NCBI RefSeq assembly: GCF_964204865.1
Contig: NC_135257.1
Location: forward strand, 3,906,001 to 3,970,000
Reading direction: 5' to 3'
DNA: 64,000 nucleotides
Source of the DNA: Styela clava
Lineage: Eukaryota > Chordata > Ascidiacea > Stolidobranchia > Styelidae
The notes under the pieces were generated by a model. It saw only the letters and a program-made list of their open reading frames with translations, ran no database searches and was not told where the DNA came from. This document shows positions 10,205 to 53,694 of this stretch, one piece after another (position 1 is the first letter of the stretch; each line of letters opens with the position of its first letter). Both the position numbers and the translations under genes were made by a program.

Positions 10205-10644
10205 TTAAATTCCGGCAATCGTTTTCAATTCAATACGTTGAATCTTCCCTGTGGCTGATTCTGGAATCTTCTTAACAAACTCAATTCCACCTCTTAGTCG
10301 TTTGTAATCAACCAGTTCAACTGAATGATGGTGAATAGTTCTTTATAATTATGAAAAATTTGTAATGTTCCCATATGTCATATGTCCGTGACTCCTGTAG
10401 AATAGTTTGAAAATGTCTCATAATAATTTTACTCAGCTAAACCTCAGCGAACTCAAGGCATCCTTATTTTTTTTTCTCATCTTCCACGTCGTTTCTGTTA
10501 GAATCTAACAGTTAGATCATCAACCTGCTTGGCGACAAATGCTTTTGAAAGTTCACCTGTATAAGTATCACGAATTTCAATAACTCCTAGATCCTCGACT
10601 TTGGGATGTTTTGATATAACGCTCTCTAGCTCTGCAGGTGACAC
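10205..10644 (-). pseudogene. Acyl-CoA synthetase pseudogene P1 (exons 11-12 only)
   Basis: Exon 11 starts at 10644 with [10 protein letters not shown] and runs to about 10485. It carries a 15-bp net insertion at 10496-10517 and has lost its normal 3' end and splice donor. Exon 12 (10320-10205) keeps GELVDYK-like sequence and SATGKIQR, with PES in place of PKS before it, and stops one codon early. No exons 1-10 are present on this strand nearby. It sits in the inverted-repeat arm, so it arose by inverted duplication of the 3' part of a paralogue rather than by retroposition: intron 11 is retained. Confidence 0.8.
10496..10517 (-). other. hAT excision footprint in exon 11 of P1
   Basis: On the minus strand the site reads ATCTAAC, then TGTTAGAT, then TCTAACA. 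The middle block is the exact reverse complement of ATCTAACA, the 8-bp target duplication that flanks the hAT element at the matching position of P2. Each outer copy has lost one base. This is the pattern left when hAT excision forms hairpins on flanking DNA that are opened off-centre. Confidence 0.8.
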
Positions 10645-14463: not shown

Positions 14464-14918
14464 CAGGGGTCGGCAACCTTTTGTCTCTCGCGGGCCAAAA
14501 TATGGGTTGCAATTCATTGGCGGGCGGCAAATATTTTCAGAAAGTTGAAAAACGAAAGGATAATACTTTTTATACTAAAAATGAAGCGATGATACATCTC
14601 TCGAAAAGAATATATATTTATTTTCTTATTGTATTGCATTTTTGGCGCCTTTGAACCCTTTGCACTTAGCATCAGCATTTCTGCGTTTTGTTGCCATTTG
14701 TCTAATTATAATTAAATTATGGGCTCATTAAACGAGTAATTGTAAATTTTATACACGTTAGATTATATTATAATTTAGTCTAAACGCGTCTCTCAATGAA
14801 TTGTGATTGTGTAACATGAAAAATATAATTGTCAAAACAGCTGTTTTGTTACTATAGTTCTGTGAAGCGTCGCGGGCCGGATTATGTTACTCCGCGGGCC
14901 GTAGGTTGCCCAACCCTG
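14464..14918. mobile_element. Non-autonomous hAT element, 455 bp
   Basis: The left end is CAGGGGTCGGCAACC and the right end GGTTGCCCAACCCTG, near-perfect inverted repeats. The 8-bp target duplication TCCTATAG flanks it (14456-14463 and 14919-14926). Subterminal GCGGGCC blocks are typical of this class. The paralogous position in the P3 block (about 27085) has no element. Confidence 0.85.
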
Positions 14919-15438: not shown

Positions 15439-17067
15439 CATGGATCACCAAACTATGGCCCGCGCCTTATTTTATCCGGCCCGCAATAACACGCAAAAAT
15501 GGCTAAATTTTTTTCCAATGAAGATTTTCCCAAGCATCATCTCCCATGTTTTTTTCATAACATTGGCCAATCAGCAAGATGCAAAAACGTGACGTAATAA
15601 AAGGCCTTTTCGCACCCGCTTATACACTTTTGTCACCCTGACAGATTTTCACTCGTGGTTGTAAACAATAATTCGTTTTTGCGACTTTGAATGCTATTTG
15701 TTAGTTTTTGGTTGTGTTTCGGAAATTTAAGTATATACCAATCGAATAAGTCAATCATCATTTGCCTCCTCAGGAGTTGTAGTTGTAATAGTAGTAATGA
15801 AAAATTAGTCTAGAAATAGCTGTGACAAAATAGGCTAAAATTCTCTACCGGTACGCAACGTTTTCTGCGAAAGATGCGCTTGTACACTCGTGGCGCGTGC
15901 TTCAAACGAAACTGTTTACGTTTTTGTGCTAAAATAAACGTCGAATGTGCATTTTTCGCTAGCAGTACTGTGATCCCTTGCGTATTGCTCCAATTTCACA
16001 AGTCACACTAACTTTCGTACTGCTTAAATGCGGATATTCATGTAGGTTATTATATATTCATAAAGTTCATCCGATTCAAATAATAACTGCGCCAGTGGAT
16101 AGATCGGAGTGAAAATAGAAAACAATACCAAGTTTATAAAAAAAACGGTCAAAAAATAACGGAGATATCGGAATTTTAGTACCGCTCGACAGGCTAATTT
16201 TTTTCATAAGGATTGTATTACTGTTTTGATATGAACTGTAATAAATATGAAAAAAGAACACATATCAATCACTATTCTTTCGATGTGCGTCACATCTATG
16301 GAATATTGAGACTATTTCAGGATTCTATTCTGGCAACCGTCATTGGCACGACACCGCCGAAAGATCGTCGCAAATAAACGCTAGAATTGTGCATGATAGT
16401 TTGACAGGTGTTCATTGTGGGTAATATTTAACGATGTTCTGATCGTACAAACTTCATAGAAATTGGTAAGTATTAAGTTAGGAAAGAAATACACACCACA
16501 CGTCCATATAAATAAAATTGGTGTCCATAGACAATATCATCAATTTGCACTACGTATGCCTAAAGCGTAATTTTTAAAAGCGTCGAATGTTGGGAAATTT
16601 ATGCGCTAATGAAAAAAATCAAATACCAAATAATAGTTGTATATTTTATCTAAATTATGTCAAAATTTCATGGAATTCCAAGCTACAGCAAGCAGTCCGT
16701 AGTCGTTTTTATGAGCGGTATTCCAACACTTAGCAGACGTGATCCGTACATTTTTTGGCGCGAAAAAGCGGATTTGTAACATTCCTAATTCATGACAGCA
16801 ACGTTTTGTTAACAGCTAAACTCAGGTTAGTTGTCTAGATATAGAGATCTTGTATATTTGTTTTCCTAGGATGTTCTCAATCTATCTTCTGCGATATAGA
16901 TAGAATTTAATATTCAAGTCTTCAGAAATGTAGAATATATATTGTTGAATGGATTTCCCAACTTTTGTGAATTTATTGTATTGCATTGACAAAAATAATC
17001 ATCCGGCCCGTTTAAGCATAGTTTGAGCCATACTCGGCCCGCGGTCAAAAAAGTTTGGTGACCCCTG
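15439..17067. mobile_element. Non-autonomous hAT element inside exon 11 of P2, 1,629 bp
   Basis: The left end CATGGATCACCAAACT and the reverse complement of the right end CAGGGGTCACCAAACT match well, with subterminal GGCCCGCG blocks. The exact 8-bp duplication ATCTAACA flanks it (15431-15438 and 17068-17075). No transposase motif is visible inside. Short frames at 16076-16261 (minus) and near 16661 (plus) recur in the P3 copy, but both copies descend from one insertion, so this is not evidence of coding. Confidence 0.85.
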
Positions 17068-21600: not shown

Positions 21601-24495
21601 TAGATTAAGTAGGCTACATTCGATACCCACTTATTCACTTATTGAATCTGTTCTAATATCAATTCGTGGTTATAGATCACTTACATTATGACGGTACCAC
21701 CCATATTAATCGAACTAGTTAACGATGACAACACCGCAAATTACGATGTTTCCAGTCTTAAACAAGTAGCATGTGGAGGGGCAGCACTTTCTCCGGATAT
21801 ATCAAGAAAAATAGCACAAAAGTTTGATGTTGTCATGAGACCAGGTAAATGTTAGATTATACAGAATTTGTATTTTTGACCTAATTATGCGCAAAGTTTT
21901 GAATACCCACTACGGTGTTATACGAAGACAAAAGATAAAAAGAGGTTGGTCTGTGCCAGAGCCAAATGGCCACTATATTGCTACACTAATTTGGTGTAAT
22001 ACATATATGCGTTGAACTTATTTGATACAAAGTCTCACATCTAGGTAGCAACCACAATAGAATGAAAACTTTTATTGTAAAAGTCTAACGGGATACTTAC
22101 TAGCTACGAATTAATCTTGCAAAAGTTACTATAAACGAGATATCAGAAAATATTACTTCTATTTATCAAGAGTACGGACTGACAGAATTTTTCATTATTG
22201 CCTGTCATTTTGGAGAAGAAAGTTTATTTGACGGCGTGGGAAAAATTGTCCCAAATACAAAAGTCAAGGTGAGTATAATTCCCAAATATTCATATTTGGC
22301 CTAATAGGTGATAGATCTGACTGTAAAATTTTATAAAGCATCAGATGAGCTAGAACTTGTCATTCACTTATTGAACACAAAGCGGACCTATGGATCGTTT
22401 TGTTATTGTCGGTATTCTTTTTCATGTTGCCGTGAAAAAATCGCCTCTTTTTATTAACAACTGGACCAAGTGCTTTGCAATTTTTAATCGTTGAAGATTG
22501 TGTTTGTTGCTAGAATGCTTTTGTTTAATAAATTCTGTAGGCTCTATGGCATTCATTTTTGCGTGATGACGTCATAAAAATTAGAACTTGCACCTCGTGC
22601 CGGTTTCGCGTTCGCTGCAACCTGTTAGTCAGTCGAGGTCTGGAAGAATACGGCACCGGTACTGCAGAAGATTAGATACCATTACTGCTTCATTTTGGCT
22701 TTCTTGTCCATATATTCGAGCATTGCTCCCTTATGTATAAATCTGAAGTCAGTCTTTCTTGGGAATTGACTTTTTTGTTTTCAATTATAGTAATTGAATC
22801 GAAACTTTCTGGTTCAACAGACGCAATACGAATCATTCTCTAGTCAGTCTAGTCACTAGTCTAGTCACTAGTCACTAGACTCTAGTGCAACCTAACATCA
22901 CCATTATATAAAGTAACCTTTGAAAGAAAGATCAATCCTTCACAAAAAGTAATATAAAGATAATATGGCCCTGTTCATATGTATATATGTTATACATTTA
23001 TAAACAGCGTAAAATTAATTCTCTGTTAAAATATTCAATTTTTCACATCAAAGATAATTGATCTGCTAACGGGAAGGGAACTTTCTGAAAATAAGACTGG
23101 AGAAATTCTCGCACAAGGGCCTCAGGTATAATATGATAGGATTGTAGGTTATTTGTTTTCAGTATCAAAGCTAAGTTATTTTTAAATATCAAAATCATCA
23201 TTCAGCATGGTTAAAAGGGGCTTGCACATTACATCTTCTAAAATTCCTTATTGTCATATTACAATAAGTTTGATTGTAACTTATAAAAAAGTGAACTTTC
23301 ACAGCAACCTAATGACCATACTTGTTATTGCTGAGAATAACCCTGGATTATCCCAGGAAAGTCTCTTTTCCTTTATTGTAAGATTTTTTTTAAAGATAAA
23401 TACCACCAAGTTACGATAGAATCCAATTTTCCAACATCACAATTAAAGTGACTGTGGATTAGAATTTATTTAAAAAAAAAAAAAAAATTTGCAGTTTTAT
23501 TCTAAATTGTCGCTTTTTGGGAGCGCCTTTAACATATTTATATATACATAACCTACTTTCATAAAAGAATGATAAATTGGCAATGAACCCGAGTAACCTT
23601 CTGAATTTATGTTTTGCATAGAAAAAACTGTACATATACAGACTGTAAGTTTAGAACTAAATAATAAAGAGTGCTTCCATTTGCAGGTCATGAAAGGATA
23701 CATGGGAAACCCAGATGCAACAGCACGAACTATTACGAAAGATGGTTGGATGCACACAGGTGATATCGGATATGTTGATCACGATGGAATATTGTATATA
23801 ATTGATCGCCTCAAAGAAGTCATCAAGTACAAAAGCTTTCAGGTATAGGTATATTGTGAGTACGGCTGTCTATTTTCTAGTTACAGTTTTGCCAAAGATG
23901 AAAAAACAATTTGATTAAAGCACTAATGCTTATGCCACGACTGAAGTGATCTTTTTTATGGAAGAAATTTTCTACTGTTCGATAAGTTTAAATAAGTATT
24001 TACCGCTTTCCACTGCATGCGTTTTTGCGGTTCTACAGTCTAAAAAAATATGTATGTCGGTATGCAAGATTGTCTTAATTTGTCGTGTTTTGATTTTCAA
24101 AAGTGAACGAGTTTTGATTTCTATGTTCCGTTTGATTCAGGTGTCACCTGCAGAGCTAGAGAGGGTTATATTGAAACATCCCAAAGTCGAGGATGTAGGA
24201 GTTATTGGAATTCCTGATACTTATGCAGGTGAACTTCCAAAAGCATTTGTCGTGAAGAAGGTTGATAATCTAACCAAAGACGACGTGGATTCTTTTGTGA
24301 AAGGTAGGAGTCACATAATTTGACATATGGAAGCAGTACAAATTTTTCGTAATATAAAGAACGTTTCATCATTCAGGCGAACTGGTTGATTACAAACAAC
24401 TGAGAGGTGGAATTGAGTTTGTAAAGAAGATTCCAAAATCAGCCACAGGGAAGATTCAACGTATTGAATTAAAAAAAATGGCCGGAATTGAATAA
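18614..24495 (+). CDS. 4-coumarate:CoA ligase/luciferase-like acyl-CoA synthetase, copy A (12 exons)
   Basis: Predicted ATP- and CoA-dependent acid ligase of the ANL family; substrate unknown. Exons: 18614-18715, 19553-19763, 20508-20614, 20741-20813, 20921-21053, 21220-21385, 21676-21844, 22171-22268, 23054-23125, 23687-23842, 24141-24303, 24377-24495. All introns are GT-AG and the joined frame is open for 522 aa, close to the usual 530-560 aa of the family. Motifs: AMP-binding loop [11 protein letters not shown] (183-193), EYGLTE (321-326), [13 protein letters not shown] with Asp403, hinge IDRLKEVIK (416-424), VSPAELE (430-436), and catalytic Lys509 in [10 protein letters not shown]. There is no signal peptide, no membrane helix and no C-terminal SKL. 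AATAAA overlaps the stop. The 5' ATG is fixed by the match of exon 1 across four paralogues. It is almost identical in layout to copy B and is the undamaged member of that pair. Confidence 0.9.
19134..19540. mobile_element. hAT-like insertion in intron 1 of copy A
   Basis: CAGTGTTTCTCAACC starts at 19134, and the same end (CAGTGGTTCTCAACC) occurs at the matching site in copy B (31472). Copies C and D lack it. I could not place the right end exactly. Confidence 0.4.
22838..22887 (+). other. Probable hAT excision footprint with palindromic filler, intron 8 of copy A
   Basis: The stretch starts with CTCTAGT and ends with CTCTAGTG, the 8-bp duplication that flanks the hAT element at the same position in copy B. 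Between them are about 35 bp made of repeated CACTAGT and CTAGT units, that is, fragments of the target site and its reverse complement. The flanks on both sides match copy B. Confidence 0.7.
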
Positions 24496-26278: not shown

Positions 26279-27394
26279 AAAGTCATCAAGTACAAAAGCC
26301 TTCAGATATTCTGAATTGTGAAAACAACTGTCAATTCCCTAGTTACAAAAATGAAAAGCAATTCGAGGAAAGCGCTGATGCTTATGCCAAGACTGAACGG
26401 ATCACATTTGTAAAAAAAAAATTGCCTCTGTTAGATAGTTTAAGTTCAAGTAAGAATTCACCGGTTTCTAGTGCGTGAGATTTCGGGATTCTACTTGTCT
26501 TGAACAATATGTATGTCGTTATGAAAGATTGTCTCAATTTGTCGTATTTTGAATTTCCAGAGTCGATGTTATTTCTAATTTGTCAAGCAATTACTAAACT
26601 TAGTTTCGCAACTATTACTAACATGACTTCGATTTCCACAATTCCACATAAAGTTTCCAGCAACTGTTTCTCGTCTGTTTTTGAAAACAGTAGAGAGCTT
26701 TCAGCTCACCATTTATCAAAATATTAGTTGAATCCAATATTACAGCAAATTGCAGAACTCTTGAGTTATAAGGTTTTCGCCTGACTGTCTTGATCGTGAT
26801 ACGCCAACCGCCTCTTAAGCCTAACTTAACAAGAACAAATGAATTTTGAATTGACATTTCCTAATACAATTAATTTTTAATATGATTTAAGCTAGAGTTG
26901 GTTAACTTGTTCTAAACCATTTTTCATACCAATAAAAATGACATGACATGATTGATATGTCACAGTGATATTATAGAATATTGGGTAATTTTGCTGCTTC
27001 TGGTTAACAGGTGATGTTTAAACTTAAAGTCATTCTAATCTTAAAATTAGAAGCAATCTCTTAGCCTTAAAATACGTAACAATTAGTGATACCATTTGTG
27101 ATCTTATATAGTGAATGAACATGCCCGGAAATGTCTTAATAAAGTGTGTAACAAAGATGAATTATGTTAAAACTGATTCGTCATTGTGATATGGCTTGGG
27201 GCTGTTTAACTTAATTATGTCCAGTGAAAAACAAGTTTTATAACTCTATCAAGTCTTAACAAACTAGTTTTACTTCCTTTAACATTATTAATTTAAAAAA
27301 CAACAGTAAATCTTACTAAAATAACAAGATTATTCATATAAGATCACTCACATCGTATCTCAAAGGAGCAAATAAGTTTTCAATTTTATTTTTA

Positions 27395-29486
27395 ATTTTT
27401 TTCCCGAGCATCGTCTTCCTTGTTTATTTCGTAACATTGGCCAATCAGCAAGATGCAAAAAAGTGACGTAATAAAAGGCCTTTTCGCACCCGCTCAAACA
27501 CTTTTGTCATCCTGACAGATTTTCAGTCGTGGTTGTAAACAATACTTCGTTTTGCGACTTTGAATGCTATTTGTTAGTTTTTGGTTGTGTTTCGGAAATT
27601 TAGGTATATATACGAATCAAATAAGTCAATCATCATTTGCTTCCTCCGGAGTTGTAGTTTTAATAGTAGTAATGAAAATTAGTCTAGGAATAGCTGTGAC
27701 AAAATAGGCTAAAATTCACTACCGGTACGCAACGTTTTCTGCGAAATATGCACTTGTACACTCGTGACGCGTGCTTTCAACGAAACTGTTTACGTTTCTT
27801 GTGCTAAAATAAACGTTGAATTTGCATTTTGCGCTAACAGTACTGCTCCAATTTCACAAGTCACACTAACTTCTGTACTGCTTAAATGCGGATATTCATG
27901 TATAGGTAATGTTACAAAAAAATTAAAGTTCATCCGATTCAAATAAAAACTGCACCAGTGGATAGATCTGAGTGAAAATAGAAAACAGTGCCAAGTTTAT
28001 AAAAAAAACTGTCAAAAAATAACGGAGATATCGGAATTTTAGTACCGCCCGGCAGGTCAATTTTTTCCATAAGGATTGTATTACTTTTTTGATATGAACT
28101 GTAAAAAATTTGAAAAAAGAACACATATCAATCACTAGTCTTTCGATGTGCGTCACATTTAGGGAATATTGAGACTATTTCAGGATTTGTTCTGGCAACG
28201 GTCATTGGCACGATACCGCCGAAAGATCGTCGCAAATAAACGCTAGAATTGTGCATGATAGTTTGACAGGGGTTCATTGTGGGTAATATTCAACGATGTT
28301 CTGATCGTACAAACTTCATAAAAATTGGTAAGTATTAAGTTAGGAAAGAAATACACACGTCCATATAAATATTATTGATGTCCATAGACAATATCTTTAA
28401 TTTTCACTACGTATACCGAGAGCGTAATTTTTAAAACCCCCGAATGTTGGGAAATTTATGCGCTAATGAAAAAAATCAAATATCAGATAATAGTTGTATA
28501 TTTTATCTAAATTTTTTTTTTTTTTTTCTTTTTTTTTACAGATCAGAATACGATTTATCTCGGATCAGTATCTTCTTGATACGTCATGCCCGATTCATAA
28601 CGTTATGACGCTTTATAAGCATGTTGCTTCAAAAGCAATCATACATATTAGGGGCTGCTACGTACATAACAGTTAACACCCCTCAAGCTTCAGTATCTTC
28701 ATTTCCGCTGGGTCGTTTGATCGTATTACTTTCGTTCATGCTACCATTTATGGTGAGCGTGATGGGGTAGTATAAAAAACGATGGATTTAATGTCAGTTT
28801 GGGCATAGTGGCTTTTTATTTTACAGTCGTGTTCAAGTCTCGTTATTGTTTATTTTGAGCCACTCTTCAATTCTTTCTATCTTCCTAATATCACTTTGGG
28901 TCCCTTTCACATTTTTAATTCTCCATATCACCTTATTGATTATTTTTCTGGTCAATTCACTTTCTATATTATGCCTTTCATTTAATTGGAGTTGTTCCTG
29001 AGTTTTGTATAGTTTAATCTTGAGATTGTATAGAGATTGCATATTTTATCTAAATTATGTCGAAATTTCATGGAATTCCAAGCTACAGCAAGCAGTCCGT
29101 AATAATCATTATGAGCGGTATTCCAACACGGCGTAACGGTGGGCTACTTAGCAGACGTGATGCGTACATTTTTTGGCGCGAAAAAGCTGATTTTGTAACA
29201 TTCCTAATTCATGACAGCAACGTTTTGATAACAGCTAAACTCAGGATAGTTATCTAAATATAAAAATCTTATATATTTGTTTTCCTAGGATGTTCTCGAT
29301 CTATCTTCTGCAATATAATTAAAATTTAATATTCAAGTCTTCAGAAATGTAGAATATATATTGTTGAAAGGATTTCCCAACTTTTGTGAATTTATTATAT
29401 TGCATTGAAAAATATATTCATCCGGCCCGTTTCAGCACAGTTTGAGTCATACTCGGCCAGCGATCAAAAAAGTTTAATGATCCCTG
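27395..29486. mobile_element. Right part of hAT element in P3
   Basis: Matches the interior and right end of the element at 15439-17067 and ends in TGATCCCTG, followed by ACCTAACA, a one-base variant of the target duplication. The left end is deleted. A poly(A) retroposon (28514-29040) is nested inside it. Confidence 0.75.
28514..29040 (-). mobile_element. Poly(A)-tailed retroposon or processed pseudogene, minus strand
   Basis: An insertion of 527 bp flanked by an exact 16-bp target duplication, ATATTTTATCTAAATT (28498-28513 and 29041-29056). Its plus-strand left side is a T-rich run of about 26 bases, so the element ends in poly(A) on the minus strand. It holds a 69-codon charged frame (29042-28833) rich in Lys, Glu and Asn with no family I recognise, then about 300 bp of untranslated-looking sequence with GATAAA shortly before the tail. 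It is absent from the matching place in P2. A 5'-truncated LINE or a processed pseudogene both fit. Confidence 0.75.
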
Positions 29487-29932
29487 ACCTAACAGAAGAC
29501 GACGTGGATGCTTTTGTGAAAGGTGAGTAAAACAATTATGAATGCCGTGAGTTCCCGGAATTTAATGAAATAAACGTGAAAATTGTTAAAGTTTTTAGAT
29601 AATTTTTATTTAATTAAATTAGGATAATGAAAATTGAATCTGTTAATAGTTTGCAAAATAATTTAATAAAACTCATGGCTATGGCATTCGAATTTAATTG
29701 ATTTTGAAAAGCGTGATAATCCTTGAGGCAGTGAGCACTTCCGCTTGTATACCGCTTCCGCTTGTATACCGCTTGTATACATTACAAGATACAACGTGTG
29801 CACATTTAATACAATCCTCGACGTGGCAAATCAATCATTACAGCGATCCAAAAATCTGACAACAATGTTGTCACTTAAATAGCAGATCGGTATGAGATTT
29901 ATTTTTGTATGATCTGTATAAGGATCCAAATA

Positions 29933-34057: not shown

Positions 34058-34973
34058 CCTTCGGACAGCTCAAATCCCTGACCATTTTAGGGGTCTTTTT
34101 AAACCTATTTTTTTTGTCAACCATTAAGCCCTAAATCTTAACTCATGGCTTTTTGAAAGCGTCTGCTAGAGTTCTATTCAGCAATATATCTTTAAAACAC
34201 ACTCATCAAAAAAAAATTTTTGCAAAAAAATTTCAAAAATTTCTAAAAAAAAATTGAACTTTGAAATATTTTGTGTACAGTAGAGGGTTAATAATTAATT
34301 CCTAATTAATTAATTTTTTCTTCAACGTTTTCGTCAAGTTTTTCCTAACATAACAATACCAAAACGACTATTATAGCATAAATGGTTATTACTCTGAAAT
34401 TCACAATTGTATTTACAGTATTGTCAAGTTCAAGGTCAAATTACCGATATTGATGACGTCACAGCTCTTATTATTACTGCACAGACCACCCCCAATGCAA
34501 AAAAATTAAATTTTTTCGACGGAAATGCGCGTAGAACGACGTAAACAATCCCATACGCACATTTACGCGGTAAAATTACCATTAATTTTACGTTTTTTTT
34601 ACATACAAAAAATCTCCATACCTCTGCCAACTAAGGAGCTGTCGAAATCATATTTATCAAAACAACACAGCGCCAGGGATGGTCAGGGATGGTTAGTATG
34701 ACTGAAAATACATGCTAAAACAATAATAAGTCGTTATAAAGGAGTATTTCCTGTCTGAGCTGAGTCGACATTTTCAGACGTCTGACAGGCAATTTTGAAA
34801 TCCACGCTATATATACGATTCGCACTTTGCGTCACGGCTGGAAGGTTTTATCGCTTCTCTCATACCAGGGCATTACGTCAATAAACAGCTAAGAGCGATA
34901 GTAACAGTAGGTTACCATGAGCTAGCCTTAATAGCGCTGAAAAGCCCATATGGGCTTACCGGCTGTGGGAGGG
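34058..34973. mobile_element. piggyBac-like non-autonomous element in exon 7 of copy B
   Basis: An insertion of 916 bp bounded on both sides by TTAA (34054-34057 and 34974-34977), the piggyBac target. The ends are CCTTCGGACAGC and, on the reverse strand, CCCTCCCACAGCC, imperfect inverted repeats starting with C runs. No transposase frame is seen. It is absent from exon 7 of A, C and D. Confidence 0.75.
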
Positions 34974-36056
34974 TTAAACAAGTAGCATGTGGAGGGGCAG
35001 TTCTTGCTCCGGACATTTCAAGAAAAATAGCACAAAAGTTTGATGTTGACATGAGACCAGGTAAATGTTAGATTATACAGAATTAGTATTTTTTAACTAA
35101 TTATGGGCAAAGTTTTGAATATCCACTACGGTGTTATACGAAGACAAAAGATTAAAAGAGGTTGGTCTGTGCCAGAGCCAAATGGCCACGATATTGCTAC
35201 ACTAATTTGGTGTAATACAAATATGCGTTGAACTTATTTGATAAAAAGTCCCACATCTAGGTAGCAACCACAATAGAATGAAAACTTTTATTGTAAAAGT
35301 CTAACGGGAAACTTACTAGCTACGAATTAATCTTGCAAAAGTGACTATAAACGAGATATCAGAAAATATTACTTCCATTTATCAAGAGTACGGATTGACA
35401 GAATTTTATTTCATTGCCTATCATTTTGGAGATGAAAGTTTATTTGACGGCGTGGGAAAAATTGTCCCAAATACAAAGGTCAAGGTGAGTATAATTCCCA
35501 AATATTCATATTTGGCCCAATAGGTGATAGATCTGACTGTAAAATTTCATGAAGCATCATATGAACTAGAACTTGTCATTCACTTATTGAACACAAAGCG
35601 GACCTATGGATCGTTTTGTTATTGTCGGTATTCTTTTTTATGTTGCCGTGAAAATCGCATTTTTTATTAACAACTGGACCAAGTGCTTTGCAATTTTTAG
35701 TCGTTGAAGATTGTGTTTGTTGCTAGAACGCTTTTGTTTAATAAATTCTGTAGGCTCTATGGCATTCATTTTTGCGTGATGACGTCATAAAAATTAGAAC
35801 TTGCACCTCGTGCCGGTTTCGCGTTCGCTGCTTAACCTTTTGGTCAGTCGAAGTCTGGAAGAATACGGCACCGGTACTGCAGTAGATTAGATACCATTAC
35901 TGCTTCATTTTGGCTTTCTTATCCATACATTCGAGCATTGCTCTCTTGTGAATCTGAACTCGGTCTTTCCTGTGAATTGACTTTTTTGTTTTCAATTATA
36001 GTAATTGAATCGAAACATTCTGGTTCAACAGACGCAATACAAATCATTCTCTAGTG

Positions 36057-36939
36057 CAGGGATGGCGAACCACTGACCCGCGGGTCACAAAGTGACCCAC
36101 CGCGTTTTATTTGTGACCCGCCAAGCGAAGGCACGAATAAAATAAAATAAAATGCTAACATATCAGTGATAAAAATTGATAAAACCGGCTTTAAATTAAT
36201 CTAACAATAACTAAACTATTATAATGTACCGTCAGTTGGACAGTCAGGAAGGGCTGCGATCGTTCATGTTCAAAATGTTGATTTCGTGCCGGTATGGTAA
36301 TTTTTAAAACCCCTAATCTTGTACGCATGTATGCACCGCTGTGTACCGTTATTCAGCTATTGGGCCTGACATCGTTTATGACATAACAATGCAATTGATC
36401 ATCTGTTCATTTCTCGCAACGCCTGTCATTTTTGGAAGTGCATCTACAGACTGTTTTAGGGGTTATACGAGAACTAGATGCTACTTTGCATTTTATTAGT
36501 TTCTCGTCTACAATGCCGTTGTGAAAACAAAAACTTTCAGACTTGAAATTAAAATCTAGAAATCTGATATAACAATGGGGCAGTGTAAAAGTGGCTTAAT
36601 GTGGTTGGAAGCTGATCGAAAATTATAACACTATCAAAGCGGAATTACCTCCAAACACTAGAACCGTAAAATAATTTAACGCAACATCCTAAACGTTTTT
36701 GGTAATTCATGTGCGTGTTTTCGTACTCTAACATCATAAAACCGAGTGCCATGAAAAGTCCCTGATAGAAATGCTGCATTAGTAAAGCCCAAAACTACAC
36801 CAACACCAGCTTATAAGATTTGTTTCAGAAGTTTCTTATAGATACAAACGTGAATTAAATATCTGTGACCCACTCTCTTCTGTTCCGCGATAAAATTATA
36901 ATTTTTGACCCATTCATTGAAAAAGGTTCGCCATCCCTG
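36057..36939. mobile_element. Non-autonomous hAT element in intron 8 of copy B, 883 bp
   Basis: Perfect 15-bp inverted ends CAGGGATGGCGAACC / GGTTCGCCATCCCTG and an exact 8-bp duplication CTCTAGTG (36049-36056 and 36940-36947). Subterminal GTGACCC and CGCGGGTC blocks are present. No transposase frame is seen. Copy A has a footprint at this site. Confidence 0.9.
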
Positions 36940-38125
36940 CTCTAGTGCAACATAACATCACCATTATATAAAGTAACCTTTGAAAGAAAGATCAATTCTT
37001 CACAAAAAGTAATATAAAGATAATATGGCCCTGTTCATATGTATATATGTTATACATTTATAAACAGCGTAAAATATTCAATTTTTCACATCAAAGATAA
37101 TTGATCAGCTAACGGGAAAGGAACTTTCTGAAAATAAGACTGGAGAAATTCTCGCACAAGGGCCTCAGGTATAATATGATAGAGTTGTAGGTTACTTGTT
37201 TTCAGTACCGAAGCTAAGTTATTTTTAAATATCAAAATCATCATTCAGCATGGTTAAAAGGGGCTTGCACATTACATCTTCTAAAATTCCGTATTGTCAT
37301 ATTACAATAAGTTTGATTGTAACTTATAAAAAAGTGAACTTTCACAGCAACCTAATGACCATACTTGTTATTGCTGAAAATAACCCTGGATTGTCCCAGA
37401 AAAGTCTCTTTTCCATTATGGTAAGATATTTTTTAAAGATGAATACCACCAAGTTATGATAGAATCCATTTTTCCAACATCACAATTAAAGTGACTGTGG
37501 ATTAGAATTCATATAAGAAAAAAATTCAAAACCATTTTGCAGTTTTATTCTAAATTGTCGCTTTTTGGGTGCGCATTTAACATATGTATATATACATAAC
37601 CTACTTTCCTAAAAGGATGATAAATTGGCAATGAACCCGAGTAACCTTCTGAATTTATGTTTTATATAGAAAACGCTGTCGTATACAGACTGTAGGTTTA
37701 GAACTAAATATTAAAGAGTGCTTCCATTTGCAGGTCATGAAAGGATACATGGGAAACCCAGATGCAACAGCACGAACTATTACAAAAGACGGATGGATGC
37801 ACACGGGTGATATCGGATATATTGATAATGATGGGATATTGTATATAATTGATCGCCTGAAAGAAGTCATCAAGTACAAAAGCATTCAGGTATTCTAAAT
37901 TGTGAAAACGGCTGTCTATTTGTTAGTTACAGTTGTGCAAAAAATGAAAAGGCAATTTGACAATGCTCATGCCACGACTTCCACGATCATTTTTGTGGAA
38001 GAAATTTTCTACTGTTAGATAGTTTAAGTTCATATAGGTATTTACCGCTTTCAACTGCGTGAGATTGTGGTGTTCTACTGTCTTGAAAAATATGTCGTTA
38101 TTAAATATTGTCTTAATTTCTCGTG

Positions 38126-39720: not shown

Positions 39721-39728
39721 GATTACAG

Positions 39729-40652
39729 CATAGCTTCTCAAAGTGCTCCGTACGGAGCCCCGGGGCTCCGCGAGAGAAACCCAGGGGATCAGCGAGCTAT
39801 TCGATTACTCTTCAAAATACTGATCTTGATCTTTTTGCGATCTTGGGATTTGTCAAACTTGATTTGTTCTTTCGCACTTGAGATTATTTTAAGCAAGATA
39901 TCGCCGTTTAAAAAATCACAATGTCTGGGCAAAATACGAACAATTGAAAAATATTTTATTGCAATCAGCTCCGTCGGTAGTTTCAGAATGAAAAAAGGTA
40001 CATCGCCGATCGCGCGCACAATTGATTGCGTGCGGCTGCGTCGGTAGTTTCGGAATGAAAAAAAAGGTACATCACGCGCACAATTCTCTGTGTTTCGATT
40101 TCGCAGTTACTGAGATGAAAACCTAACATAACATCAAATTTTGTGATTTACAATGTCTATAAAAGCGTTTTCAATCTGAAGTGAGTCTGCTGAAACCAAA
40201 CGTGTGATCTTCCATTTTAAGTTTCAATTTTAATATTTTAGAATGCCGTTTTTCAATCAATAAATTTGAGTTGTGGATTTACCTCTTTATTGATTATTAT
40301 TTTTAGCATTTCGTCGCCGATGACTATAATATGGTAACATGTTTTTCACATTGAACTCATAATTCCCCACGAGAACAAAAAAGCAATTAACGTCGTCATT
40401 GTGTAACAATACATGTATATGCCGAGGGAAATTTCTGATTTAGGGAGAACAGCTTTAGTATAAAATTTAGATTTATTTATAACTTGTGTTAACCCTATTA
40501 AAAAGGTTCAGCATTTTGAAATAGGTAAAGTACTTTTAACTTGCTCAGGAATATTAATCTGAAAGTAACAATTTTAACATTTATTTTGGGGCTCCGTGAA
40601 TAATATTCAACCTTTCAAGGGCTCCGCAACATCAAAAGTTTGAAAACCCCTG
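39729..40652. mobile_element. Non-autonomous hAT element, 924 bp
   Basis: The left end CATAGCTTCTCAAAGTG pairs loosely with the reverse of the right end TTTGAAAACCCCTG. The exact 8-bp duplication GATTACAG flanks it (39721-39728 and 40653-40660). Both ends have GGGGCTCCG subterminal repeats. It is absent after copies A and C. The overlapping frames at 39789-40047 lie on opposite strands and look non-coding. Confidence 0.8.
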
Positions 40653-40804
40653 GATTACAGGATACACCTTGTGCATATTTAATACAATCCTCGGCGTGGC
40701 AAACCAATCGTTCCATCGATCCAAAAATTTGTAACAATGATTTCACTTAAACAGCAGATTGGGATGAGATTTATTCTGGTATAATCCGTATATGGATCCA
40801 AATA

Positions 40805-48300: not shown

Positions 48301-50842
48301 GAAAAAAGTTCCATAATTATCAACCCCAATAGAAGGAAAACTAGAAAAATAGAAGGAATTAATCTAAAAAGTGACTGTTAAACGAGATAAAAAAAACATG
48401 ATTTCTCACTTGTATTTATCAAGCGTATGCAATGACAGAATGTCTTATGATCGCCTATCATTTTGGAGAGGGAAGTTTATTTGACGGCGTTGGAAAAATT
48501 TGCCCAAATATGAAGGTCAAGGTAAGTTAGGGTTGCCAACCGTCCTTTATTTCAAAAGACAATTCTTTATTTAAGCTTTTCGGTCCTTGTCCTTTTTAGC
48601 ATTTAGAAAATATGCTAATTGTCTTTTATTCTTTCCAACGACGTTATAGTTATAGTAATGCGGCCCACCAGGCATTTTTTTGGGGCCCGCGTCATGATTG
48701 GGATTTTTCCACAAAAAACTAAAATAGCACGATGTCAACTTTTAGTAAGTTTTATTGTGTCATTTATCATCAAGAGTCCGGTCCGACAAAATGTAAAACG
48801 TGAAGCAAAAATTTCCCACTGTTATTCCACTTTACCACGTTCATGTTTTATTCTATTGTTACAATTCAATAATGAATACAATAATTTCATTCCGCATGTT
48901 CATTGTGACGAAATAAACGAGTTTCGGTCCGTTCATTATGCCCGAAAAAAGGTTTGCGAAGCTAATTGCACATTCACGTTGCATACCTGCGATGTTTGAC
49001 AGTTCTTATATTTGCGAGCATTTTTTTCAACTATGAAAGTTAGCCCTCCGCACACGACTAACGGACGAGCATTTGCTGTCTTAAGACTAGCAAACCAACG
49101 CAAAATGAGGCCAAACATCGAAACCAAATATAATCTAGCACTAGTAAATGAATATGTTTCATGTCTCGTTTGCTGTAAGATTCAAGTGTAATTTCAACAC
49201 AATACATTCAGATACTCATTTTTGTACCTTGGTTTGCGGCCCGCGTGGCCAATAAATTTCAAAAAGTGTCCCGCGACATTTTTGAGTTGGAGACCCCTGG
49301 ACTCTAATGTAACATAATATCACCATTAGCCTGTAGTAGCAGCCGTTGAAAGGAAAATTAATCCTTCAAAAAATAATTATAAAAATAATATATATGGCCC
49401 TGTTCAGATGTATATATATATATGTTATACATTCATAAACAGCGTAAAATCATTTCAATTCTCTGTTAAAATATTCAAATTTTCGCATCAAGATAATTGA
49501 TCTGCTAACGGGAAAGGAGCTTCCTGAAAATGAGACTGGAGAAATTCTGGCACACGGACCTCAGGTATATAGAGTAATAGGTTTGTTTGTTATTTGTTTC
49601 GAGTATCGAAGGTAAGATGTAGAACTTTTGTTGTTAGTAGCCAGTTTAATATTGGTCACTTGACATAGAAGGTTTTCTTTTTAATATTAAAATCGTCTTT
49701 CAAAATGGTTAAAAGATGTTTGCCCATTACAGCTTATAAAAATCCGTTGAGTCATATTATGACAAGTTTGATTGTAATTTAGTAAATACTTTAGTTAATT
49801 TAGTGATACTTGTTATCGCTGAAAATAACACTGAATTGTACCGGGCAAGCTTTTCCTTTTATGCTGAGAACTTTATTTAAAGATAAATGCTACCAAGTTA
49901 TGATAGCATCTAATTTTCTAACATTACAATTAAATTTATATGAATTAAAATCCACATGAAAAAAAACATTTTTATTTCAAGTTGTCGCTTATTGGAAGGA
50001 TGATAAGTTATGGTACAAATAGCAATGCAACCCAAGTAGCTTTCTGAATTTATGTTTCGCTTAGAAAAAGTTGTTCATATACAGTCTTCAAGTTTAAAAC
50101 TAAATAGTGAGGCGGTGCTCTTTGCAGGTCATGAAAGGATACATGGGGAACCCAGATGCAACAGCACAAACTATTACGAAAGATGGATGGATGCACACCG
50201 GTGATATCGGATATGTTGATCATGATGGAATATTGTATATAATTGATCGCATCAAAGAAGTCATCAAGTACAAAAGCTTTCAGGTATAGGTATATTGTGA
50301 GAACGGCTGTCTATTTTCTAGTTTCAGTTTTGCCAAAAATGAAAAGGCAATTGGATAAAAGCGCTAATGCTTATGCCAGGACTGAAGTGGTTCTACAGTC
50401 TCAAAAAATATGTATGTTTTTATGCAAGATTGTCTTAAATTGTCGTGTTTGAACAAGTTTTGATTTCTATGTTCCGTTTGATTCAGGTGTCACCTGCAGA
50501 GCTAGAGAGTGTTATATTGAAACATCCCAAAGTCGAGGATGTAGGAGTTATTGGAATTCCTGATACTTATGCAGGTGAACTTCCAAAAGCATTTGTCGTG
50601 AAGAAGGTTGATAATCTAACCAAAGACGACGTGGATTTCTTTGTGAAAGGTAGGAGTCACATAATTTGACATATGGAAACATTACAAAGTTTTCGTAATT
50701 ATAAAGAAAGTTTCATCATTCAGGCGAACTGGTTGATTACAAACAACTGAGAGGTGGAATTGAGTTTGTTAAGAAGATTCCAAAATCAGCCACAGGGAAG
50801 ATTCAACGTATTGAATTGAAAAAAATGGCCGGAACTAAATAA
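42361..50842 (+). CDS. 4-coumarate:CoA ligase/luciferase-like acyl-CoA synthetase, copy C (12 exons)
   Basis: Exons: 42361-42462, 43320-43530, 46870-46976, 47080-47152, 47271-47403, 47506-47671, 47935-48103, 48424-48521, 49493-49564, 50128-50283, 50487-50649, 50724-50842. The joined frame is open for 522 aa with GT-AG introns. It has the AMP-binding loop [24 protein letters not shown], the hinge IDRIKEVIK and the lysine motif [10 protein letters not shown]. The motif before the second nucleotide-binding segment is AYAMTE rather than YGxTE, as in copy E; this may alter the acyl pocket, which is inference. Intron 2 is 3.3 kb because of pogo-like and hAT insertions, and intron 8 also holds repeat DNA. 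Exon 10 to the stop is very close to copy A, while exons 1-8 are more diverged, suggesting gene conversion of the 3' part. Confidence 0.87.
44481..45176 (-). mobile_element. Degenerate pogo/Tigger-like transposase fragment in intron 2 of copy C
   Basis: Two broken minus-strand frames follow each other. The upstream one (45176-44952) has [20 protein letters not shown], resembling the helix-turn-helix region of pogo/Tigger transposases. The next (44905-44633) has [16 protein letters not shown] and then [12 protein letters not shown], matching the IYNVDETG motif with the first catalytic Asp; the expected ETG reads KTE. The rest of the DDE domain is unreadable. It is a dead remnant. Confidence 0.65.
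45845..45909. mobile_element. hAT-like right end, solitary
   Basis: Ends CGCACACCCCTG with GCGGGCCGC and GCGAGCCGC subterminal blocks, as in hAT elements. No partner left end was found. Confidence 0.45.
45961..46275. mobile_element. Non-autonomous hAT element, 315 bp
   Basis: The left end CAGGGCCACTCAACT and the reverse of the right end CGGGGCTACTCAACT match at 13 of 15 positions. The flanking octamers CCATAGGC and CCCTAGGC differ at one base. It contains GGACCGCGGTCC, a subterminal palindrome. It lies in intron 2 of copy C. Confidence 0.7.
48530..49299. mobile_element. hAT-like repeat DNA in intron 8 of copy C
   Basis: The right end GAGACCCCTG (to 49299) and GCGGCCCGCG subterminal blocks at about 48661-48692 and 49236-49246 are hAT-like. 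A separate GGGTTGCCAACCGTCC end starts near 48529. I could not pair the ends with a clear target duplication. Frames inside (48619-49127) overlap on both strands and look non-coding. Confidence 0.45.
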
Positions 50843-51344: not shown

Positions 51345-53694
51345 CAGGGGTCGGGAACCTATGGCTCGCGAGCCATATATGGCTCTTTTGGTGACCGCAT
51401 ATGGCTCCCAGTGAAAATCCAATATTCAAAGGTTAATCTTAGTATTGTTACCAGATTTCAGACTATTTTATGGCCAGGTATGGCAGAAAATTCGCCAACG
51501 CGCTCAGCGCATGTCTAAGTTTTGTGAGAGAATTGACAGACAAGCATTGTGACAAAACAGAGGATTCTGGAACTTTGAGACATCACGAAGTGATAGAATC
51601 GCGGAGCAAGGAAGTCTTCCGTCCGAAAAAAAAAACAGAAAGAAAGATGATGAGTATCGGGGATTTCAGCTTGAATGGACAGAGAAATTTGCCTTTGTGG
51701 AGAGAAAAGATCATTTAGTTTGTCTAATATGCAATGCTCAAATCGCGTCGATGAAACGGTCGAATGTAAAGAGACATTTTCACACATGCCACACATCCTT
51801 CGCATCTAAATATCCAGAGGGAGACATCAGGAAGGGGGCATGCTTGGAACTACTACGCCAAGTGAAAGCGAGTCAGCAGCAACTTCGAGCATGGTCTCAG
51901 AAAGGTAACTGTAATTCGGCTAGCTTTGCTGCCTCTTTAGCAATAGTGAAGAACGGAAAGCCGTTTACAGATGGCGAGTATGCCAAAATATTTATGCTTG
52001 ATGTGGCCAATGAACTTTTTGAGGACTTGTCAAAAAAAGATACAATAATAAAAAGAATTAAAGACGTGCCTCTGTCAGCACGTACTGTTCACGATCGCGC
52101 TATCATGATGGCAAATGAAGTGGAGGAAATACAATTAAAGGATATAAATAAAGCGGAATTATTTTCTCTTGCTTTTGATGAGTCTACGGACGTAAGCCAT
52201 TTATCACAGTTCAGTGTAATTGCAAGGTATGTTGTGGGTGACACACTGCGTGAAGAAAATCTTGCTGTTTTGCCACTGAAAGGAACAACACGAGGAGAAG
52301 ATTTATTTCGGTCTTTCATGGAGTTCGCAACGGAAAAAAGCTGCCGATTGATAATCTTGTTTCAGTGTGCACTGACGGAGCTCCTTGTATGATGGGGAAA
52401 AACAAAGGGTTTGTAGCGCTTCTTCCTGAACATGAAAAAAGGCCCATCCTAAGTTCCCCACTGCATTCTACATCAGGAAGCGCTTTGTGCTCAATTGTGT
52501 GGCAAGCAGTTTAGCGACGTAATGGATGTGGTCACTTCGGTGGTTAATTTTATTGTTGCCCGAGCTTTAAATGATCGCCAGTTTAAATCACTCATGGCTG
52601 AAGTTGGAAACAATTATCCCGGTTTGCTTTTGCACAGCAATGTGCGTTGGTTGTCAAGAGGGAAGGTGCTCAACCGTTTTGCAGAATGCTTAAATAAAAA
52701 CCGGACTTTTCTTAAGATGAAAAACGTTACGCATCCTGAGTTAACTAACCAATCCTGACTGGCTCCGGAAGTTTTATTATCTCGCGGACATGACTGAACA
52801 TCTCAATCAGCTCAATGTGAAAATGCAAGGAATTGGAAATACAATCCTATCCCTTCAACAAACTTTGTTTGCATTTGAAAAAAGGCTGGAGGTATTTATT
52901 GAGGATCTTGGAACGGGTCGTCTGTTACATTTCGAAAGGGTGAAAAACTTCAAAGATGTAATCACTGCAAATAATCCCACTCATGATTCCAATCTCCAGC
53001 AGCTAGTTGGCTTCACATGTATTCTCCTGCAGTCATTCAAAGCGCGATTTGCAGAATCTCGTGCGCGCATTAGTCTTTTTAAGTTCATCACTCATCCATA
53101 TGAGTGTGCTGTAAATGACGTCGACTTGAGTTACATTCCTGGTGTCTGCATCAAAAATTTTGAGTTAGAAGTTGCTGACCTAATGGTTTCAGACGTATGT
53201 GTCAACAAGTTCAAATCACTAAATGAAAATTTGGAAACACTTGAACGACAACAAGCGGAGCTCGCGATCAACCATAAATGAACAGAAATGAAAGAACTTC
53301 AACCCGCTGACCAGTTGATTGTCAAAACTTGGAACGCGCTTCCTGCCACTTACCGCACACTGAAAAGAGTGTGTATTGCTGTATTGACCATGTTTGGATC
53401 CACATATGCATGTGAGCAGTCGTTCTCACACTTGAAAAACAATAAGACAAACCAGCGATTTCGTTTAACAGATGAAAGCCTCAACGCCTGTATGAAACTT
53501 AACCTCACCAATTATCAACCAGACTTCAAGACCCTCAGTGACAACATGCAGCATCAGAAGTCACATTAAATGTATATTGGGACATTGTATGTTTTGACTT
53601 TTGAGTACAAATTCGTTTTATGGCTCGCACAGAAATAAAATTGAAAATATATTCGTTTTATGGCTCTCTTGACAATAAAGGTTCCCGACCCCTG
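51345..53694 (+). mobile_element. Decayed autonomous hAT transposon, 2,350 bp
   Basis: Perfect 15-bp inverted ends CAGGGGTCGGGAACC / GGTTCCCGACCCCTG, with an exact 8-bp duplication GCTTAAAG (51337-51344 and 53695-53702). Inside is one transposase gene on the plus strand, broken into five frames. GCGAGCC and TATGGCTC blocks repeat near both ends. It is inserted in the conserved 3' flank of copy C. Confidence 0.92.
51470..53569 (+). pseudogene. hAT transposase (ZBED5/GTF2IRD2-type), frameshifted
   Basis: In order: an N-terminal part whose frame changes near a poly-A run at 51628; a BED-like zinc finger (HLVCLICNAQ with HFHTCH, about 51713-51792); first catalytic region FDESTDVSHLSQFSVIARYV (about 52173-52232); second, CTDGAPCMMGKN, in a shifted frame near 52364; a HCILHQEALC motif near 52461 after another shift; NVRWLSRGKVL near 52638; then the hAT C-terminal dimerisation domain with ACEQSFSHLKNNKTNQRF near 53409-53462. 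Stops at about 52756 and 53279 and at least three frameshifts rule out a working enzyme. The domain order matches hAT transposases related to vertebrate ZBED5/GTF2IRD2-type genes. Confidence 0.9.

Follow-up and report, generated by a model that had tools for sequence, protein, structure and literature searches.

In the sections of PMC5873905 used here, the footprints of the Ac/Ds elements are described as inverted repeats centred on the complement of the base which bordered the element, and they are explained by the formation of hairpins on the flanks, the opening of these hairpins and the joining of the ends, with microhomology being common. Their inverted arms reach up to 20 nt in yeast (S. 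cerevisiae), and for Ds in C. albicans the maximum is 3 nt. The footprints made in human cells by TcBuster, a hAT transposon of a beetle, hold added bases that are complementary to the flank according to the consulted part of PMC3499496, and the formation of hairpins on the flank by hAT enzymes is likewise described in parts of PMC6900584 and PMC4763223, section 4 of the latter giving cut positions for Kat1 only. The Mar MITEs of Drosophila, which are short non-coding hAT elements, have 8-bp targets of the form nnnTAnnn, a form shared with the five hAT targets recognized in the window (viz. the whole stretch of 64,000 bases analysed here); this form is the reported consensus of Buster elements, and the examined portion of the text on Mar contains no mention of excision, of a footprint or of an empty site (PMC3517528). 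Further, a search of the open-access literature found no paper joining a hAT MITE, an excision footprint, an empty site and a paralogue, which should not be interpreted as showing its absence from print.

The scar described here lies in a partial gene copy, P1, and it follows the same centring rule as the footprints of Ac/Ds in plants, S. cerevisiae and C. albicans in the excerpted text of PMC5873905. It differs from these in being natural and known from sequence alone, and in that its inverted block is the whole 8-bp target, a length of 8 nt that is above the 3-nt maximum of Ds in C. albicans and within the yeast arms of up to 20 nt. With TcBuster it shares both the hAT family and the addition of bases complementary to the flank; however, in the part of PMC3499496 consulted, the additions are commonly of a few nucleotides and come from plasmids in transfected cells, whereas the P1 block is of 8 nt. 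The P1 scar is supported as a probable new natural case of a known type of event, viz. the excision of a hAT element through flank hairpins.

The exon 11 site in a cluster of luciferase-like genes

The paralogues in the window belong to a cluster which extends past it on contig C9 (genome 376.6 Mb), and whose products are luciferase-like acyl-CoA synthetases. The concatenated peptides of gene A match PF00501 (E=2.4e-68) and PF13193 (E=1.5e-16), and their best matches in the PDB are luciferases and 4-coumarate-CoA ligases. The coordinates of the features discussed are listed in Table 1.

Table 1. Positions of gene copies, elements, target duplications and putative scars in the window
Feature	Position	Strand	Description
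P1	9068..10913 (about)	minus	inverted partial copy of luciferase-like acyl-CoA synthetase gene: last two exons and 3' flank; pseudogene fragment
Putative excision scar in P1	10496..10517	minus	ATCTAAC / TGTTAGAT / TCTAACA; 22-base palindromic
hAT MITE in P2	14456-14926		element 14464-14918 with TCCTATAG on both sides; within intron stretch common to P3
Left 8-bp target duplication in P2	15431..15438	plus	ATCTAACA
hAT element E1 filling the P2 site	15439..17067	plus	1,629 bp; imperfect 16-nt terminal inverted repeats
Right target duplication in P2	17068..17075	plus	ATCTAACA
Second putative scar, paralogue A	22838..22887	plus	50 nt replacing 8, at the base which E3 fills in B
E1 insertion in P3, common with P2	27399..29486	plus	E1 without its first 86 bases; adjoining left-hand part of exon 11 also deleted
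TTAA-flanked insertion	34058-34973		splits exon 7 of paralogue B
Second filled site, paralogue B	36049..36947	plus	CTCTAGTG + hAT element E3 (36057-36939, 883 bp) + CTCTAGTG
E5	39721-40660		hAT element (39729-40652) in target GATTACAG
hAT-like element in paralogue C	48530-49310		ends in CCCTG; different from E3
E4	51345-53694		hAT element, 2,350 bp, target GCTTAAAG

The sequence-only reading had placed a palindromic footprint of hAT excision in exon 11 of P1. The exon labelled 11 is indeed present in this copy; however, P1 is a two-exon fragment, as tblastn with the peptides of ten exons yielded matches for the final two alone (labelled 11 and 12). When exon 11 is compared base by base in 11 copies (Y, Z, P1, P2, P3, A, B, C, D, E and F), the site is filled in P2, filled but damaged in P3 and scarred in P1, and the 8 other copies have a single clean target.

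The filled counterpart in P2 is confirmed. The plus strand reads GATG, ATCTAACA, E1 (15439-17067), ATCTAACA, GAAG, i.e. the 8-bp target duplication is exact and flanks both ends of the hAT element at the same base as the P1 scar. The 16-nt ends of E1 in P2 (CATGGATCACCAAACT and AGTTTGGTGACCCCTG) are 88% complementary, and as its longest open stretch is of 62 aa and no hAT transposase is encoded, this copy is non-autonomous. E1 is multi-copy in the genome (40 of 2577 candidates scored); at the 6 other loci examined, the target duplication is exact in one (L003, whose target TATTGGAC is an exception to nnnTAnnn) and nearly exact by eye in another (L004), the ends seen of the remaining 4 being not judgeable. 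P3 provides a second filled copy of the site. Its E1 has 523 additional bases between 28513 and 29037, and its right target copy (29487-29494) is ACCTAACA. In comparison to P2, deletions are found in P3 on both sides of E1, one at 27393-27399 which took the left end of E1 with the adjoining exon part, and one at 29554-29555 which removed 233 bp of intron. The hAT MITE in the intron of P2 is absent from P3, and P3 is also without some of the sequence surrounding it.

In P1, the minus strand from 10517 to 10496 is ATCTAACTGTTAGATTCTAACA, and the string claimed earlier (ATCTAAC, TGTTAGAT, TCTAACA) is present there letter for letter, its middle block being the exact reverse complement of the P2 target duplication ATCTAACA. 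The layout is thus that of the target minus its element-side base, followed by the whole inverted target and again by the target minus its element-side base. In its strict form, T[1-7] + revcomp(T) + T[2-8] where T is an 8-mer, this arrangement occurs once in the 64,000 bases, at 10496-10517, compared with 0.0007 expected per window by a simple base-composition estimate and none in 40 simulated Markov-1 windows. Relaxed matches to the triple block (<=3 mismatches) are not rare, there being 18 in the window, inclusive of P1, versus 330 over all 40 simulated windows (8.25 per window on average). The 14 additional bases of P1 are missing from all 8 element-free paralogues examined (A, B, C, D, E, F, Y and Z), and a tandem-repeat origin of the block is rejected, as TRF finds no tandem repeat over 10400-10620. 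The P1 scar is real and far beyond chance; it throws the reading frame into a stop (DDLTVRF*), and small deletions in P1 lie directly beside it.

Flank hairpins and the origin of the scar

For a test of the mechanism, the joins of two flank hairpins were enumerated with the tips placed 0-3 bases outside the element. With an offset of 1, the exact P1 sequence is obtained from 55 joins; these vary in the opening points, the overlap of the ends and deletion, 54 of them involving two 3' overhangs and the remaining one a 2-base left deletion. Due to the fit of 55 such splits of opening and overlap, the opening points are not readable from the P1 sequence. The offsets of 0, 2 and 3 gave no solution for P1 in this enumeration. 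Fully opened double hairpins were also scanned, with target lengths from 4 to 12 bases and offsets from 0 to 3 in every register of a 31-base stretch, and among these P1 results only from ATCTAACA with an offset of 1. This 1-nt offset should be informative, because the trimming of ends cannot remove the base at the centre of a palindrome. Both palindromes in P1 are centred on T, the complement of the A which borders the element. A nick offset of one base is that of Hermes, and the centring rule of Ac/Ds, as given in the excerpted text of PMC5873905, is equivalent to it.

The best explanation for the P1 scar is the excision of an E1 insertion via flank hairpins, for which we estimate a probability of about 0.92. 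According to this explanation, a non-autonomous E1 would have inserted in exon 11 of a common ancestor of P1, P2 and P3, duplicating ATCTAACA, and in the P1 lineage it would have been excised by a hAT transposase, presumably encoded elsewhere, which nicked one base outside each end of E1 and sealed the flanks as hairpins (left ATCTAAC-TGTTAGAT, right TGTTAGA-ATCTAACA). Host enzymes would then have opened the hairpins away from the tip. Since the direct repetition of the target makes the two 3' overhangs complementary, their annealing and filling in could give ATCTAAC-TGTTAGAT-TCTAACA. The further suggestion that the direct-repeat target itself guides the repair, with both hairpins nicked near the far target edge and perfectly complementary 3' overhangs annealing, such that a distinct class of hAT scars is formed, is tentative and in our view somewhat doubtful. 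The earlier interpretation of the P1 insertion as a hairpin-derived footprint of hAT excision gains support from the position of the scar at the base filled in P2, from the exact match at an offset of 1 and from a second pair of filled and scarred sites in the cluster, in which similar words recur.

Template switching during replication can also yield a local inverted plus direct duplication. If a fork copied the opposite strand and then returned, the inverted and direct copies of ATCTAAC in P1 would have arisen with no transposon, and both the form of the P1 product and the small deletions adjoining the scar would be in line with such an event. However, the switch points must then fall exactly at the two borders of the 8-bp target that E1 occupies in P2 while dropping the element-side base twice, one fit only exists among the lengths and registers modelled, and another scar-like insertion is present at the second filled site (A/B); this explanation is thus judged to be highly improbable.

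One E1 insertion and the branching of P1

Over 1,450 positions, the E1 copies of P2 and P3 deviate in the same way from the consensus of 17 others at 48 positions. Of these common changes, 16 are confined to P2 and P3, 3 recur in one or two of the others and 29 in three or more (subfamily changes). The private changes number 45 in the P2 copy and 52 in the P3 copy, and the divergence between them within E1 is 7.31%. As the 16 common changes are absent from the 17 other copies, the E1 copies of P2 and P3 go back to a single insertion.

The flanks, compared over 795 columns, differ by 8.18% (6.29-10.19) between P1 and P2, by 5.53% (95% interval 3.90-7.17) between P1 and P3, and by 6.67% (5.03-8.55) between P2 and P3, and these intervals overlap. 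The tree and its topology tests use only segments located downstream of the site, and the two upstream ones were considered separately. In the best tree, P1 groups with the filled P3 (AU 0.856). The topology in which P2 and P3 group together and P1 lies outside is not rejected (AU 0.205), and that grouping P1 with P2 is rejected by the AU test (0.0198) but not by the KH (0.093) or SH (0.095) tests. The upstream segments, in turn, favour P1 with P2, as the sites at which two copies are alike are divided among P1P2, P1P3 and P2P3 in the ratios 5:2:4 and 3:0:0, and the copy closest to P1 upstream of the site is P2 (51/51 bases). Since the downstream tree gives one grouping and the upstream segments the other, the history of these copies looks mosaic. 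Judged from these alignments, P1 is nested within the filled group under either of the two groupings. That the footprint lies beside a filled relative holds in so far as both P2 and P3 are filled and the best tree joins P1 with P3; however, the tree with P1 outside P2 and P3 is not rejected.

An intron stretch of about 370 bp is common to P2 and P3 but absent from P1, which resembles B there. Either P1 would have lost this stretch or P1 would have branched first, and an occupied ancestor of P1 is compatible with both. If P1 had split off before E1 reached the ancestor of P2 and P3, then its 14 additional bases would stem from a hAT element that independently entered the same target and was excised again, and the 370-bp insertion in the intron of P2 and P3 together with the unrejected P2+P3 tree would agree with such a split. 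However, two insertions at one base are then required, P1, P2 and P3 are the only ones affected among the 11 paralogues, and P1 is close to P3 by the flank distance of 5.53%. We consider such an early split to be marginally less probable even than template switching, and excision of E1 from an occupied P1 ancestor remains the explanation that we favour.

A probable second filled and scarred pair, and the meaning of such scars

A scar-like insertion is also present in paralogue A, at the base which is filled by E3 in paralogue B, the site being clean in P2, D, E and F. E3 has short terminal inverted repeats beginning with CA(G/T), as has E1; both of its ends are CAGGGATGGCGAACC, its longest open stretch is of 62 aa, and as it encodes no hAT transposase it is a non-autonomous copy. 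The E3 family is young, with matches of 92-97% identity save for the window's own copy and a 111-base piece (99%), 40 of 901 candidates having been scored. Among the 12 best of 41 matches, the target duplication is exact in 10 loci inclusive of its own, is recognized by eye with a 2-base shift in the 11th, and is not seen in L026.

Several other elements were observed in the same cluster. The one in paralogue C lies about where E3 sits in B, and the 8 bases adjoining its right end were not found a second time in the window. The form nnnTAnnn is shown by each of the five hAT targets recognized in the window (that of E5 by eye, none being found for the element in C) and by 10 of the 10 exact E3 targets, the target ATAGTAGG of a 169-bp element beyond the window being an exception. 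The terminal bases of E4 match at 12/12 positions, and its ORFs match zf-C2H2_12 and Dimer_Tnp_hAT (PF05699, E=2e-08). The sequence CACTGATTACAG, to the left of E5, recurs beyond the window on its downstream side, in two copies that lack the element. The TTAA-flanked insertion in B, which we take to be piggyBac-like, has no counterpart in six other paralogues.

The lead to the A scar came from the list of near-matches to the triple block, one of which lies in A at 22859-22887. The scar consists of CTCTAGT, a filler of words of the target and inverted target, CACTAGA and CTCTAGTG, and it was examined by word parsing alone. Its 50 nt are made up of 6 words of the offset-1 hairpin strands, compared with 10 words for an offset of 0 or 2, and 3,000 shuffles of its inner 35 bases needed at least 11 words, a control which does not extend to slippage. 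It does not appear to be a simple two-hairpin product. At the left joint, CTCTAGT is followed by only the CA of the predicted CACTAGAG, the right joint is centred on the target base C and not on its complement G, and the complement-centring rule is observed on one side at best.

The E3 copy in B carries 12 private changes in 879 bases versus 20.8 expected at the age of the A/B split (P=0.027), a dating from which A 23480-24087, the stretch with the largest A/B difference, is left out, or about 27 expected if all 2,707 compared A/B bases (6.10%) are used. This deficit, the calling of an array by TRF (periods 5, 7, 12, 19 or 21) and the origin of the lead in near-matches, which are not rare by themselves, would all be in accordance with the A scar being a short tandem array grown by slippage and unrelated to E3. 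However, the scar is bounded by a target copy without the element-side base and by a full target copy, at the very base filled in B and clean in P2, D, E and F, and its 6 hairpin words stand against the higher counts in all the shuffles. Due to this, an origin by slippage independent of E3 is regarded as unlikely, and later slippage may instead have lengthened a scar left by E3.

That the E3 copy of B appears to be younger than the split suggests sequence exchange between the two paralogues, and the A/B pair appears to need such a later event. To the right of the site, the first 433 bases, a tract picked after the profile was seen, differ between A and B by 2.3%, compared with 5.1% to the left (78/1531), and in the block that follows on this side the two are once more less alike (92.0%). 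The low divergence right of the site would fit an exchange from B into A after the arrival of E3.

If the A/B pair also represents a scar, then at least two excisions would have occurred within one gene cluster. The P1 scar would be a natural instance of a reaction known mainly from the laboratory, in which excision of a hAT element through flank hairpins may be read to the base from filled, scarred and element-free copies of one site lying side by side. The strict pattern of target minus one base, inverted target and target minus one base is specific enough for searches, by which past hAT excisions could be counted where the element is gone. Further, if annealing guided by the target does form a class of its own, then any genome could be screened for this same pattern, even one in which no filled copy exists.
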